This document shows, piece after piece, positions 26,575-32,930 of a stretch of 37,882 bases of DNA (position 1 is the first letter of the stretch; each line of letters starts with the position of its first letter). The notes beneath the pieces are model-generated. The model was not told where the DNA came from. It worked only from the letters and a program-made list of their open reading frames with translations, and ran no database searches. The DNA is from a virus. Both the position numbers and the translations under genes were made by a program. The stretch lies in the IMG/VR virus record IMGVR_UViG_3300037137_000983, positions 1-37,882 of that record; one strand, 5' to 3'.

Positions 26575-27342
26575 CTACACCCACACTGCGTCAGAAATGC
26601 GGACGAAGACCAGGGAGCCCCAGGGCCGTCGAATGGAGCGGACCCGGTTCGCCGAGTTGCCCTCGACCGTCACCACGACGTCCGCCTGCGGGTCCACCGC
26701 GAGAACCAACCCCGTGTGAACGCCCCCGTCGAACGGAACGGTACCCGAGGCCGGTCGACGCGCGACCACGCCGAAAATGTCCCCGGGATGCGGCACGAAC
26801 GCCCCCTCGAAGACGGGATCGTGCAGGAGGCGCCGCCGCCGAGCCCAACCCAGGATGGAGTCCACGCTGCCGAAGTGCGGGAGCTTCAGCGACCACCACG
26901 TCGTCACCGCGTAGGCGCACCACGCCGGCCCCTGCTGCCCCGCGGGCCTTCCCGTCCAGCCTGTCATCGCGTCGATGCGCGGGCTCCGGTTCGAGCCCGG
27001 GGGGACCTCGACCACCCCCGCGTGCAGGTCGAGAAGAGCCGCGTTGAGGGCGACGGCGGCTGCGGTGAACCCGAGATCCGTGACCGCGACCGAGGGGATC
27101 GCGGTCGGCTCGTCCGCCTGATGATCTCCGTCGAGCGTCGCCCAAGTCTTCGGGCCGACGATGCCGTCGTGATTGAGCGCGTGCGCCGCCTGGAAGGTCC
27201 GCACCGCTTTGTCCGTCGTCGTACTGAAGAGCCCGTCGGCGATCTCGGCCCCGTCGATGGCGAAGCCCGACTCGACGAGCCGCTGCTGGAGGTACTTGAC
27301 CGCGTCGTTGTGCACGCCGAGCGCGATGGTGGGACGAGTCAT
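26575..27342 (-). CDS. endolysin: peptidoglycan-binding plus CHAP-like amidase
   Basis: A 255-aa lysin. The N-terminal 75 residues match the PG-binding 1 domain: NDAVKYLQQRLVESGF, GLFSTTTDKAVRTFQAAHALNHDGIVGPKTWATL. The C-terminal domain has GPAWCAYAVTTWW (Cys), VHTGLVLAVD (His) and TVEGNSAN, the CHAP Cys/His/Asn pattern. No signal peptide, so it would need a holin or equivalent. Three TAG stops repeat every six bases at its end. It overlaps the RuvC gene by ATGA. Confidence 0.85.
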   Translation of the reverse strand: MTRPTIALGVHNDAVKYLQQRLVESGFAIDGAEIADGLFSTTTDKAVRTFQAAHALNHDGIVGPKTWATLDGDHQADEPTAIPSVAVTDLGFTAAAVALNAALLDLHAGVVEVPPGSNRSPRIDAMTGWTGRPAGQQGPAWCAYAVTTWWSLKLPHFGSVDSILGWARRRRLLHDPVFEGAFVPHPGDIFGVVARRPASGTVPFDGGVHTGLVLAVDPQADVVVTVEGNSANRVRSIRRPWGSLVFVRISDAVWV

Positions 27343-28123: not shown

Positions 28124-28531
28124 CTACCGGCGCCGACTCAAGAGGTCATCCAGCTTGACGTTGATCTTGTCCTGCTGGCGCTGGCTCTCGGTTGCGTGAG
28201 CGTCAAGCTGTGACTTCAGGGCATCTAGGTGGACTTGGATGATGGTGCTCTCCTTGTCCACCTTCGAGTTCACCATCTGCTGCGCGCTCTTGTCCACGTC
28301 GTACATGGACGCCCTGACGAAGAAGGCGCTGGCCACAGGCACCGCGATGCCGATGACTGCTGCCAGAAGCGCCAGCCAGGTGATGAGGGCCTTGGGCTGC
28401 GGCCAGGAGAGGAACCCACCAGACCGCTCTCGCGGCTCCGTTACGTAGATGGGGGTGCCGCGGACTGGCGTCAGCTCACGCTCTGGCACACCTTCAAAGG
28501 GCGTGGCGATGTGGTCAGTGTCGCGTGGCAT
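28124..28531 (-). CDS. membrane-anchored coiled-coil protein, i-spanin or holin-like
   Basis: A 135-aa protein. About 50 N-terminal residues precede a membrane segment (LITWLALLAAVIGIAVPVASAFFV) and a coiled-coil tail (MVNSKVDKESTIIQVHLDALKSQLDAHATES), ending in KLDDLLSRRR. A transmembrane anchor plus periplasmic coiled coil is the i-spanin plan. GGAGA lies six bases before the ATG at 28531. It overlaps the lipoprotein gene by 17 bases, the upstream gene of the pair. Confidence 0.65.
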   Translation of the reverse strand: MPRDTDHIATPFEGVPERELTPVRGTPIYVTEPRERSGGFLSWPQPKALITWLALLAAVIGIAVPVASAFFVRASMYDVDKSAQQMVNSKVDKESTIIQVHLDALKSQLDAHATESQRQQDKINVKLDDLLSRRR

Positions 28532-28673
28532 CGAGAGTCTCCGCTGATGCGTCAGGGGTAGCGCCGCCACAGTCCGCGTGAACCAGAGGACCACCACCGT
28601 CACCAGGAATGGGGCGCCCTGGGCAGCTCACCAGGAAGAAGGCTGCGATCATCAGCCAACACAAACGCAGCAT
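28515..28673 (-). CDS. small lipoprotein, o-spanin candidate
   Basis: A 52-aa protein with a short basic/hydrophobic start (MLRLCWLMIAAFFLVSC) whose LVSC fits a lipobox, then a Pro/Gly-rich mature part (PGRPIPGDGGGP). The mature part is the size of Rz1-type outer-membrane spanins. It overlaps the membrane/coiled-coil gene, but the order is the reverse of lambda Rz/Rz1 because the lipoprotein gene comes first. No certain ribosome site (GGGGGC upstream). Confidence 0.55.
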   Translation of the reverse strand: MLRLCWLMIAAFFLVSCPGRPIPGDGGGPLVHADCGGATPDASAETLDATRH

Positions 28674-28776: not shown

Positions 28777-29712
28777 CTAAACCACGAAGGTGTTGAGGTT
28801 GCCTGCGGGCCCCACTACACCATCGGCGCCAGTGCCACCTTTGACGCCCAAGGCCCCACCGGCTACCGAAGTCGTCCAGGTGCCCGAGGTAGTACGGTAG
28901 GCAAGGCCGACGAATCCACCACCACCACCTCCACCGCCACCTGTGTTACCAGCGGGGTCACCGTTGGCTCCAGCGCCACCGACAGCCTCTATGGAGCCCG
29001 CGCCTGTAACTACGGAAGCGAGAACAGCGACGAAGCCGCCACCTCCGCCGCCCCCACCCCCTTTCTTCGCGCCAGAGGTTTGACCGCCACCACCGCCACC
29101 ACCTGCCCCACCTTGGTAGGTGAAGACGGCGTTCTGGGCGTCTATGGTTCCGCCATTGAGAAGCCCAGCAAGCTCGGCGACCGTGTGTATGCCGAGCAGC
29201 GGTACAGTCCCGCCAGAAGTATCCAGGCTGCCCGCAGCACCAGCGGCTCCGTTCTGCCCCGCGCCTCCCGCACCGCCTGCGCCTCCCAGAGCGTTGTGGT
29301 AGAGCGCGGTGGCCGGGTCGCGGGTGTAACCGCCGCCCGCGCCTCCTGCACCGACCTGGCCAATACCACCAAGGGCGCCGATGTTGCTGGTAGTCCCGCC
29401 CACCTTGCGGTTGTACACGTCGTACACGGCACCAGGCCCAGCGCCACCACCAGAGGCCCCAGACCCGCCGGCGCTACCGCTAGATGCGATCTTGCCGGTG
29501 CCCGAGAGCGTCAGCGTGCCCTTTACGAATATGCGCCAACCCTTCGTCGTCAGCACCTTGCCGGTGTTGATCGTGAGGTTGTTGTAGTACATATCGCGAG
29601 CAAGGTTCGTGTCCGCAGCGATCACCACATCGCCGTCGGAACCGTCTCCGAAATAGGGGACGCCGATCACGGCCCCGTCCGCCCCCAAGAGTCCGTAGAC
29701 GTCGCCGGGCAC
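28777..29712 (-). CDS. glycine-rich tail-tip or receptor-binding-like protein
   Basis: A 311-aa protein. The first 65 residues (DGDVVIAADTNLARDMYYNNLTINTGKVLTTKGWRIFVKGTLTL, in parts) form a beta-rich lead-in typical of phage spike or fibre proteins. The rest is mostly glycine with runs such as GGAGGGGGGG between short Val/Ala strands, like polyglycine-rich adhesins on phage tails (gp38-type). Such proteins bind host surface receptors. The GTG start at 29712 follows a four-base gap after the previous gene. The match is by composition, not by a catalytic motif. Confidence 0.65.
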   Translation of the reverse strand: MPGDVYGLLGADGAVIGVPYFGDGSDGDVVIAADTNLARDMYYNNLTINTGKVLTTKGWRIFVKGTLTLSGTGKIASSGSAGGSGASGGGAGPGAVYDVYNRKVGGTTSNIGALGGIGQVGAGGAGGGYTRDPATALYHNALGGAGGAGGAGQNGAAGAAGSLDTSGGTVPLLGIHTVAELAGLLNGGTIDAQNAVFTYQGGAGGGGGGGQTSGAKKGGGGGGGGGFVAVLASVVTGAGSIEAVGGAGANGDPAGNTGGGGGGGGGFVGLAYRTTSGTWTTSVAGGALGVKGGTGADGVVGPAGNLNTFVV

Positions 29713-30125: not shown

Positions 30126-31064
30126 TCACTTCGCGGGTTGTGGCGGGCAGAACGTCATCGTGAGCACGGTGGTCGGCGTACAGGTGTGGAGCCCCACGCC
30201 ATCATCGTAGGCGTAGGCGTAGGCCGTCTTGTGACACATGCCATGGACCGCTCGGACGTACTTCGTCTGCGCCACCGGGCCAGCCTTGCACGCTCCAGGT
30301 GAGATGGGCGGCGTCGGGCAGCAGTACATCGCGGCGCGCGGATCGCTCGGAGGCTGAATGCCCTTGCCTCCGTACCCAACCTGCGTGAGCGCCTGACATG
30401 GGGAGTAGCAGCCGATGACCGCGCCACCCGCCCCGCGCACGTTGAGGTTGATGCTCTTGAACTCGGGGTACTTCCCGCCCGTCGAGAGGTCCTCGGCATC
30501 AGGGCACTGCCCTTGCCACAACTCGTTGCAGTTGACGGCCACGCAACCGGGTCCGCCGTTCGCACCGGGCTCGATGGAGTAGGGGACGGTGTAGCCCCCG
30601 ACCTCGCTCGCGTTCCACCACGTCGGTCCGTGCAACGTCTTGCCCTGTGGAGTCGTGCCGCACTGGGCTTCGGGCAGGTCGCAGCCCCATGTCGCTTCGA
30701 TCATCGAGTCGATGGGCGGCGTGCAACCAGCCGGAGGGCAAGGCGGCGATGACTGGCCTTCGGGGCAGTTCTGTCCGGTCGCATCGCAGCCGGTCTTCAC
30801 CCAGAAGCGCGTGGACGCGATCCCGGCCACCGGGATGTTGTAGGTCGTGCTCCCCTTCACAGGCAGCGCCGTGACGCTGGGGGTGCCCGCCGGCATCCCT
30901 TGCTGCTGAATCCAGATCGGGGATGCGCACTCGTTCTTGACGATGAGCAGTGGTCGCGTGGCCGGCGGAGGAGTCACCAGCGCCGGCTTGACGGGAGCCG
31001 GGCGCGGAGTCGGGTTCGGGCAACCACTGACGAAGCAAACGAGGAACAGCGCGAGGGTCTTCAA
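30126..31064 (-). CDS. thaumatin-like lipoprotein
   Basis: A 312-aa exported protein. A TTG start gives KTLALFLVCFVSGC, with a lipobox (VSGC, Cys15). A Pro-rich spacer follows. The rest follows the thaumatin fold: VKNECASPIWI, STRFWVKTGC, SMIEATW, TWWNASEVGGYTVPYSIEP, SPCQALTQ, YCC, and the signature CHKTAYAYAYDDG with MTFCP at the end. It has about 18 cysteines after the lipid Cys. Two of the acidic-cleft aspartates appear as Asn151 and Gly157. Thaumatin-like proteins bind beta-glucans or inhibit enzymes; here the target is unknown. The start matches the KTLA start of the gene before. Confidence 0.82.
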   Translation of the reverse strand: MKTLALFLVCFVSGCPNPTPRPAPVKPALVTPPPATRPLLIVKNECASPIWIQQQGMPAGTPSVTALPVKGSTTYNIPVAGIASTRFWVKTGCDATGQNCPEGQSSPPCPPAGCTPPIDSMIEATWGCDLPEAQCGTTPQGKTLHGPTWWNASEVGGYTVPYSIEPGANGGPGCVAVNCNELWQGQCPDAEDLSTGGKYPEFKSINLNVRGAGGAVIGCYSPCQALTQVGYGGKGIQPPSDPRAAMYCCPTPPISPGACKAGPVAQTKYVRAVHGMCHKTAYAYAYDDGVGLHTCTPTTVLTMTFCPPQPAK

Positions 31065-31074
31065 AGGGGGCTCC

Positions 31075-32199
31075 CTAGTAGGGCACGGCGATGAACCGCA
31101 GAGGGAACGACGATCCCCCCGTCGGCATGAACTGGCACCACGGGCTCGGGGTTGTTCCGGGAGCGTACTTACCCTCGACGGCGCCCTTGGTGTTGTCTCC
31201 GGTTGACCCGCTGGTGGCTGGGACCAGGAACACGCCGCCCACCGTGATGCCGGCGAGGGTCTTGACTGCGCCTCCCCACTGCCCGCCACGCGGGTTGAAC
31301 AGGAAGCCAAAGCTCTTGCCGTCGGTGGTCTGGACGCTGAAGTGCATCCGGTACTTGATCCCGAAGTTGCCTGTGAGCGTCTGCGTGCTCCCGTCGGTGG
31401 CGTCGGTTCCGACGGCGTTCGTATCGTTTGTGGTACCCCCAGCGAGGGGAAACTGCTGGATGCCCGCCGTGGTGTCGATGGTCCCCGCGAAGTCGTACAC
31501 CTTGTCGGCGTTCGGGAACGTGCCCCGGACGTGGCTGTCCCGCGCGGCGACGGCGAGCCCCGGGCACACGCTCGTAGGGCTGTCCCCCGTGTTCAACATG
31601 CAGATGTGAACCTCGTGCGACTGGGTGAAGCTGTAGTCCCAGATGCCGTGCAGGAGATTGCCGTTCGTCACGTTGGTCGTGTCGAACGTCGTGTCGAGAC
31701 GCTGGTAGCCGCCCGCCGCCACCGAGACGCCGGAGCCTGCGATCGCGTTGAGCCATCGCTGGAAGGCGAGCTTGCCCGCGTAAAGGAAGCTGGTCGTCGG
31801 ACCGGCCGTCCCGCCTTGCTGCACAGTCAGCGTACCCGCGGCGCTCCCGGTGTTCTTGATGACGACGGTGAACCGCTTGGTCGCTCCCGAGTTGTTGACG
31901 TGATAGACGAAGACCCGGTTGTAGTTGGTGCCGCTCGTCGCTGCGAGGGTCAGGTCGGCGTAGAGCTTGGCCTTGGCTGTCGGGCTCTCGGGGCTGTCGG
32001 AGAACACGAGATGGCCGCCGGCCCAGGTCTGGGTCATCCCGATCTCGGGGCAGTTGAGCGGGTTGACCCCCGACAGGCTGATCACGTCGGATTGGGTGGC
32101 GTTGCCGAGGTCCGTCGCCAGTTGCGCCGGGGTCGCGCAGGTCTGAGCTTGCGCGAGAGTCGTCCAGAGGAGGGCTACGAGAACAGCGAGGGTCTTCAT
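31075..32199 (-). CDS. secreted protein of unknown function, 374 aa
   Basis: MKTLAVLVALLWTTLAQA is a good signal peptide with cleavage before QTC. The mature part has LVFSDSPESPTAKAKLYADL, NRVFVYHVNNSGATKRFTVVIKNTGS, TAGPTTSFLYAGKLAFQRWL, and HEVHICMLNTGDSPTSVCPG. A pattern of FSDSPE, LY, YHVN, GP and GK occurs in some secreted bacterial proteins known to me, with no established function. The ATG at 32199 overlaps the stop of the upstream gene. It lies directly before the thaumatin-like gene. Confidence 0.7.
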   Translation of the reverse strand: MKTLAVLVALLWTTLAQAQTCATPAQLATDLGNATQSDVISLSGVNPLNCPEIGMTQTWAGGHLVFSDSPESPTAKAKLYADLTLAATSGTNYNRVFVYHVNNSGATKRFTVVIKNTGSAAGTLTVQQGGTAGPTTSFLYAGKLAFQRWLNAIAGSGVSVAAGGYQRLDTTFDTTNVTNGNLLHGIWDYSFTQSHEVHICMLNTGDSPTSVCPGLAVAARDSHVRGTFPNADKVYDFAGTIDTTAGIQQFPLAGGTTNDTNAVGTDATDGSTQTLTGNFGIKYRMHFSVQTTDGKSFGFLFNPRGGQWGGAVKTLAGITVGGVFLVPATSGSTGDNTKGAVEGKYAPGTTPSPWCQFMPTGGSSFPLRFIAVPY

Positions 32200-32930
32200 G
32201 CGGCGTACTCCAACAGTTGCAGGACGGCTCGGTTGATGGCTCCGGTAGCTCCGGGGACCACCTTGACGCGGACGTAGGTCTTCTCGGCCAACGGCACCCC
32301 GGACAGGCTGCGCGGGAAGAACTCCGCGCGACCCTGCGTGGCGACCCCAGGACCGAGGAGGCTGTAGAGATCCACCACCTGATCGATGAGATCGACGTCG
32401 TTGACCCGCGCCTGGCCGAACAACTTGAACACGGTGTCGAGGCTCGTGACCGCGGACCAGTCGAGCAGGTAGGCCACCCGGCCCGCGGGGACGTAGTGAT
32501 GGCAGAGGAAGGCGTCGGTTGCCCCCGCGCCCACTCCGCAAATCTCAGTGCCGCCGCCGGCTGTGGTCGTCTGGAGGGTGACCGCGCCGACCGCGAACGT
32601 GCCCTTGATAACCTCGAACTTCTCGATGAACCGGATGTCGGAGGCGACCGTGTTGACGCCAGTCACGCCGTTCAGCAGCACGTCCTCGGTCTTCAGGACG
32701 TAGGAGGAGGTGAGGTACGTGATCCGCACCGCCTTCGCGCCTGACCCGGCGGAGTTGGTGTCGCTCGCGCTCGTGGACTTGACGGACCGCTGGGCCTCGC
32801 TCGCCGGCTCCGTGTAGGTCCGTCCGCAGAGCAGCACCTCCGACGTTCCCGCCGACGTGAGGTTGCCCAGTCGTCGGATGAGCGCGACGGCCAACTCCGC
32901 CAGGTTCGCCCCGCCGTTCTCGTTGATCAC
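32196..32930 (-). CDS. virion or tail-fibre-associated protein, paralogue 2
   Basis: A 244-aa protein with AELAVALIRRLGNL, RTYTEPASEAQRSVKS, AVRITYLTSSY, ENVLLNG-type DVLLNGVTGVNTVASDIRFIEKFEV and a C-terminal beta-rich end. Its central block (YTE.AS.AQRSV, LNGVT.VNTVA.DI..IE..EV) is clearly the same as in the next gene upstream, so they are tandem paralogues. The GTG start overlaps the TGA above it. Structural role is inferred from position among virion genes. Confidence 0.65.
   Translation of the reverse strand: MINENGGANLAELAVALIRRLGNLTSAGTSEVLLCGRTYTEPASEAQRSVKSTSASDTNSAGSGAKAVRITYLTSSYVLKTEDVLLNGVTGVNTVASDIRFIEKFEVIKGTFAVGAVTLQTTTAGGGTEICGVGAGATDAFLCHHYVPAGRVAYLLDWSAVTSLDTVFKLFGQARVNDVDLIDQVVDLYSLLGPGVATQGRAEFFPRSLSGVPLAEKTYVRVKVVPGATGAINRAVLQLLEYAA

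Follow-up and report, generated by a model that had tools for sequence, protein, structure and literature searches.

Thaumatin-like proteins (TLPs) are best known as the PR-5 defence proteins of plants and have been little studied in bacteria. Typical TLPs contain 16 cysteines, and an acidic cleft marked by the REDDD motif has been described for the family (PMC3048497). Phages, for their part, encode small lipoproteins that block outer-membrane receptors, the genes for which lie beside that of the receptor-binding protein; in the case of T5 Llp and of Rtp45 from phage Rtp, receptor block also prevents wasted adsorption (PMC9586334, PMC12685063).

The window analysed here is the complete IMG/VR virus contig IMGVR_UViG_3300037137_000983 (37,882 nt), in which a gene for a thaumatin-like lipoprotein was identified with the following features:

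30126-31064, minus strand: thaumatin-like lipoprotein gene, 312 aa, TTG start (ORF call and PF00314)
31020-31064, minus strand: predicted lipoprotein signal peptide LKTLALFLVCFVSG and lipidated Cys15, lipobox VSGC, Pro at +2 (direct reading)
30936-31019, minus strand: Pro-rich linker, residues 16-43, from lipid anchor to domain (direct reading)
30144-30935, minus strand: thaumatin domain PF00314, residues 44-307 (profile and fold matches)
31065-31077, minus strand: junction, with TAG stop at 31075-31077, GGAG ribosome site at 31071-31074 and a 6-base spacer, then TTG

The GGAG was read directly from the sequence 6 bases 5' of the TTG, and the start lies 10 bases past the TAG stop of the preceding gene. 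This tight junction looks like that of a coupled operon, and the operon as a whole looks to be expressed late.

The sequence-only reading had described a thaumatin backbone with two named motifs, many cysteines and a lipobox, all of which were borne out. The Pfam profile PF00314 was matched along its full length (positions 1-209 of 209), scoring 61.7 bits where the cut-off is 27.4 (E=1e-16), values that place the match far above chance. The motifs RFWVKTGC and YAYAYDD occupy residues 86-93 and 282-288, respectively, and 18 cysteines follow the lipid-attachment Cys15 in the mature chain, comprising the 16 of thaumatin type and an extra pair (C128/C135); the homologue from a 152-kb phage (L017) is without this pair and has 16. 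A short hydrophobic signal precedes the VSGC lipobox at residues 12-15 (VSG/C15, a pattern-based call), and by this combination of signal and lipobox the product is predicted to be a bacterial lipoprotein of the SPase II type.

Structure prediction with AlphaFold from the single sequence reached a pLDDT of 34, and a model built from an eight-sequence alignment was also of low confidence (pLDDT 47, pTM 0.52). When this low-confidence model was compared with the PDB by Foldseek, all 27 matches at E<=0.001 were members of the thaumatin family, in agreement with the fold anticipated earlier. In a VIA alignment of the same model, TLXI, osmotin, zeamatin and thaumatin scored Z 8-10 and other beta-sandwiches came only slightly lower; the top row, at Z 10.0, was TLXI (3g7m), the wheat thaumatin-like xylanase inhibitor, on a level with MoHrip2 (9.7). 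Because the model is weak, the sequence is the main evidence for the family and the structure is consistent with it. The full-length profile match, the 16 cysteines and the fold confirm the window protein as a member of the thaumatin family.

The window encodes a DNA polymerase, a DnaB-type helicase, a primase, a UvsX-like recombinase, SSB, SbcCD and RuvC, together with an endolysin-like PG-binding protein (26575-27342). No terminase was found in the window, which is therefore probably a genome fragment. The thaumatin-like gene lies in a dense run of same-strand phage genes, including the following:

32196-32870, minus strand: phage protein of the phrog_8198 family
31075-32199, minus strand: exported protein with cleavable signal MKTLAVLVALLWTTLAQA, directly upstream of the thaumatin-like gene
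28777-29712, minus strand: downstream Gly-rich protein with poly-Gly runs, adhesin- or fibre-tip-like by composition (weak match to phrog_13336, of unknown function)

Jumbo and large phages, whose IMG/VR records are 102, 176 and 393 kb long, encode relatives of the exported protein with 54-61% identity (L060-L062), and a relative of the phrog_8198 protein precedes it, directly in L060 and with one gene between in L061. A thaumatin profile search of ten phage records carrying these neighbouring genes found no thaumatin gene, so these neighbours can occur without it. The description of the gene as phage-borne is upheld by the IMG/VR record, the replication genes and these neighbours: its surroundings are phage genes rather than host DNA, and the gene belongs to the phage.

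Several other proteins were encountered in this survey. The exported protein is a second phage-borne surface protein without a PHROG match, and its copy in L060 carries the lipobox FGIAC in place of the cleavable signal. Collagen-like proteins with Gly-X-Y repeats are encoded near glycosyltransferase-like genes (L060:2022-2504 and L050:9157-15138) in G054 and G051, two apparently related jumbo phages. In the window, a small Pro-rich lipoprotein (28515-28673, LVSC lipobox) overlaps a one-TM coiled-coil protein (28124-28531), a possible spanin-like pair, in an unusual order, near the PG-binding protein.

Homologues of the thaumatin protein were retrieved by an alignment-based scan of viral contigs, which yielded seven records (L011-L017) and later a partial one (L018); scans of this kind work from short peptides that are conserved, and may leave homologues unfound. 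A viral scan with a single sequence as query found nothing, and a PF00314 search missed the copy in a 202-kb phage that tblastn found at 52% identity, so that the initial filter of the profile search lets some members escape. The phage homologues were 36-56% identical to the window protein, mostly 52-54%, with the 36% value originating from the 152-kb phage (G053). The other carriers were a 52-110-kb group (G047-G050 and G052) and the 202-kb low-GC phage (G051), and phage marks were present in the form of portal and terminase genes in G049, a terminase in G051, and baseplate wedge and DNA polymerase genes in G053. No fewer than three phage lineages, mutually unrelated, are represented, among them that of the 202-kb jumbo phage. 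The few other proteins common to the window and the carriers (polymerase, recombinase and two more) shared about 25-35% identity; judged by sequence identity, the thaumatin protein is the best conserved between these otherwise distant phages, with the G053 copy at 36%.

A lipobox is present, and Asp absent from +2, in each of the seven phage proteins for which the N-terminus is known, that of the window included; the position of the lipobox is the same in the six other homologues, whilst the signal peptides differ. Within the 52-110-kb group dN/dS was 0.12-0.18, and the thaumatin gene is under purifying selection in this one phage lineage. The GC content of the G051 gene (0.49, against 0.42 for its genome) suggests later acquisition. 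In the window the thaumatin gene has fibre-like genes as neighbours; in the 202-kb phage it does not, and in the G047-G052 group 6-9 kb separate the two, which suggests that linkage to a receptor-binding gene is not conserved. A protein that begins like a patatin (LVLSGSGTRYPVQIGAVCEL...VGASGGA) and lacks a PHROG match is also conserved near the thaumatin gene in the 52-110-kb group:

L013:12858-13679, L014:12304-13125, L016:12274-13095 and L011:6625-7461: patatin-like-start protein

Chromosomal homologues, about 50% identical along the entire domain, were found in a Deltaproteobacteria MAG (L002) and in genomes of its phylum (L005 and L006). Like the window protein, these have a low-complexity linker, the 16 cysteines plus extra ones, and an N-terminal lipobox-like site, the residues of which are atypical in L005 and L006. 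Unlike it, they are chromosomal, with DsbD-like, PhoU and PstB-like and other metabolic genes as neighbours, and they retain the VDG aspartate. A relative of 38% identity was encoded on a Comamonas plasmid. A tree of 11 proteins resolved little beyond the L011-L016 clade, and so yields neither a count nor a proven direction of the transfers linking bacteria and phages. A phage gene of bacterial origin is the simpler reading, though not a proof, and the gene is best read as mobile lytic-phage cargo taken from bacteria.

As to function, we tentatively favour, at somewhat less than an even chance, a lipid-anchored thaumatin of bacterial origin that would sit in the outer membrane, bind a glycan or receptor, exclude other phages and spare progeny from wasted adsorption. 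Host lipoprotein machinery would export the protein and lipidate Cys15, and a +2 residue other than Asp would direct it, given a diderm host, to the outer membrane. The +2 sorting rule is established in enterics and is applied to the present host by inference, so that the lipobox and the non-Asp +2 residue predict an outer-membrane location with that qualification. On its Pro-rich tether, the disulfide-rich domain may bind an envelope glycan or surface receptor, which could shut out further phages by superinfection exclusion or receptor masking, and could keep progeny off infected cells and lysis debris. An exclusion or masking lipoprotein is our best guess by analogy with Llp and Rtp45. Exclusion proteins are often produced early in infection (PMC9586334), and the late appearance of the thaumatin operon counts against this role, as does the variable distance from fibre-like genes among the carriers.

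A second possibility, which we consider unlikely without being negligible, is that the gene is host-fitness cargo comparable to the lambda moron Bor: at the cell surface, the thaumatin would shield the infected or carrier bacterium from predators, from fungi or from glycan enzymes of foreign origin, and survival of the host would benefit the phage. That close homologues are ordinary bacterial chromosomal proteins would suit such cargo, as would the presence of the gene in unrelated phages and its accessory-gene surroundings in the G047-G052 group. Against this stand the packing of the window copy among phage genes and the result of a search of the eight carrier records for phrog_1, the tyrosine integrases: no match was found in any, weak evidence given that the records are fragments, and a role in lytic growth is for this reason favoured over lysogenic conversion.

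The remaining functional alternatives turn on the acidic cleft. With positions placed by alignment to osmotin (4l2j), the window protein has R86, E123, N151, G156 and D287, and thus keeps three of the five REDDD residues, with Asp changed to Asn at 151 and to Gly at 156. All aligned relatives have Asp at the second of these positions, where the window copy alone has Gly, and the L017 homologue has all five residues. The complete cleft that marks glycan-lytic TLPs is therefore absent from the window protein, and owing to this incompleteness a glucanase is unlikely and a non-catalytic binder likelier. Such a degraded cleft would fit an inhibitor of glycan enzymes that, like TLXI, binds and blocks hydrolases, for instance the wall-degrading enzymes of rival phages, and TLXI heads the VIA alignment. 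We nonetheless regard an inhibitor as distinctly unlikely: the structural model behind that alignment is a low-confidence one, and TLXI belongs to the small TLPs and has 10 cysteines (PMC3048497), whilst the window protein is of the long 16-cysteine type. Even less probable is a beta-1,3-glucanase-type enzyme trimming surface polysaccharide, for although glycan lysis is known for some TLPs (PMC3048497) and R86, E123 and D287 are retained, two of the five cleft positions are altered, one of them Asp in all aligned relatives.

Host DNA or an assembly chimera in the viral bin, an alternative to which the chromosomal location of the closest cellular homologues might point, is extremely improbable: host contamination was rejected on account of the adjoining genes, which are phage genes, and of the tight junction, the thaumatin gene starting after a 10-base gap from a gene whose homologues keep the same order in other phage records, and genes of the same type lie within records with portal, terminase, or baseplate and polymerase genes.

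The sequence-only reading had expected a thaumatin to be unusual in a phage, and this held in the searches made: the window protein matched no family in a PHROGs scan, tblastn with the window and L017 proteins found no match in INPHARED (50,697 phage genomes), and a literature search found no paper on phage thaumatins, nor one describing the solved bacterial TLP 7p22. The gene is nevertheless recurrent in several unrelated lineages. What is new here is a known thaumatin fold in a new carrier, a phage, lipid-anchored and recurrent. Recurrence across lineages, purifying selection and conservation above that of polymerase and recombinase point to a useful surface function, shared perhaps among phages of related hosts. 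It is possible, and we put it forward with caution, that lipid-anchored thaumatins form a new, horizontally shared class of phage surface modifiers that would put an immune-type, glycan-binding fold to a second use and mask or seal the envelope of infected bacteria against rivals or against adsorption of the phage's own progeny. As a candidate new type of exclusion lipoprotein, the protein may also offer a handle on the role of bacterial thaumatins.

Compared with known systems, the window protein shares its fold with thaumatin/PR5-like proteins of Tupanvirus soda lake, Satyrvirus and Feldmannia species virus, matched by Foldseek at 13-19% identity, but these are viruses of eukaryotes and the similarity is weak. 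With plant PR-5 proteins, osmotin and thaumatin (4l2j, 2ahn, 1thv) it has in common the fold, the 16-cysteine pattern and the RxWxxTxC and YxYxxDD motifs; the plant proteins lack a bacterial lipid anchor and usually have a complete REDDD, against three of five residues here. T5 Llp, T1-type Cor and Rtp45 resemble it in being phage-coded lipoproteins expected in the outer membrane; in the window, its gene also lies near fibre-type genes. They are, however, unrelated and much smaller (Rtp45 is about 6 kDa), which counts against exclusion. For Llp, Cor and Rtp45 exclusion has been proved, whilst for the window protein, with its larger, lectin-like domain, it is proposed.
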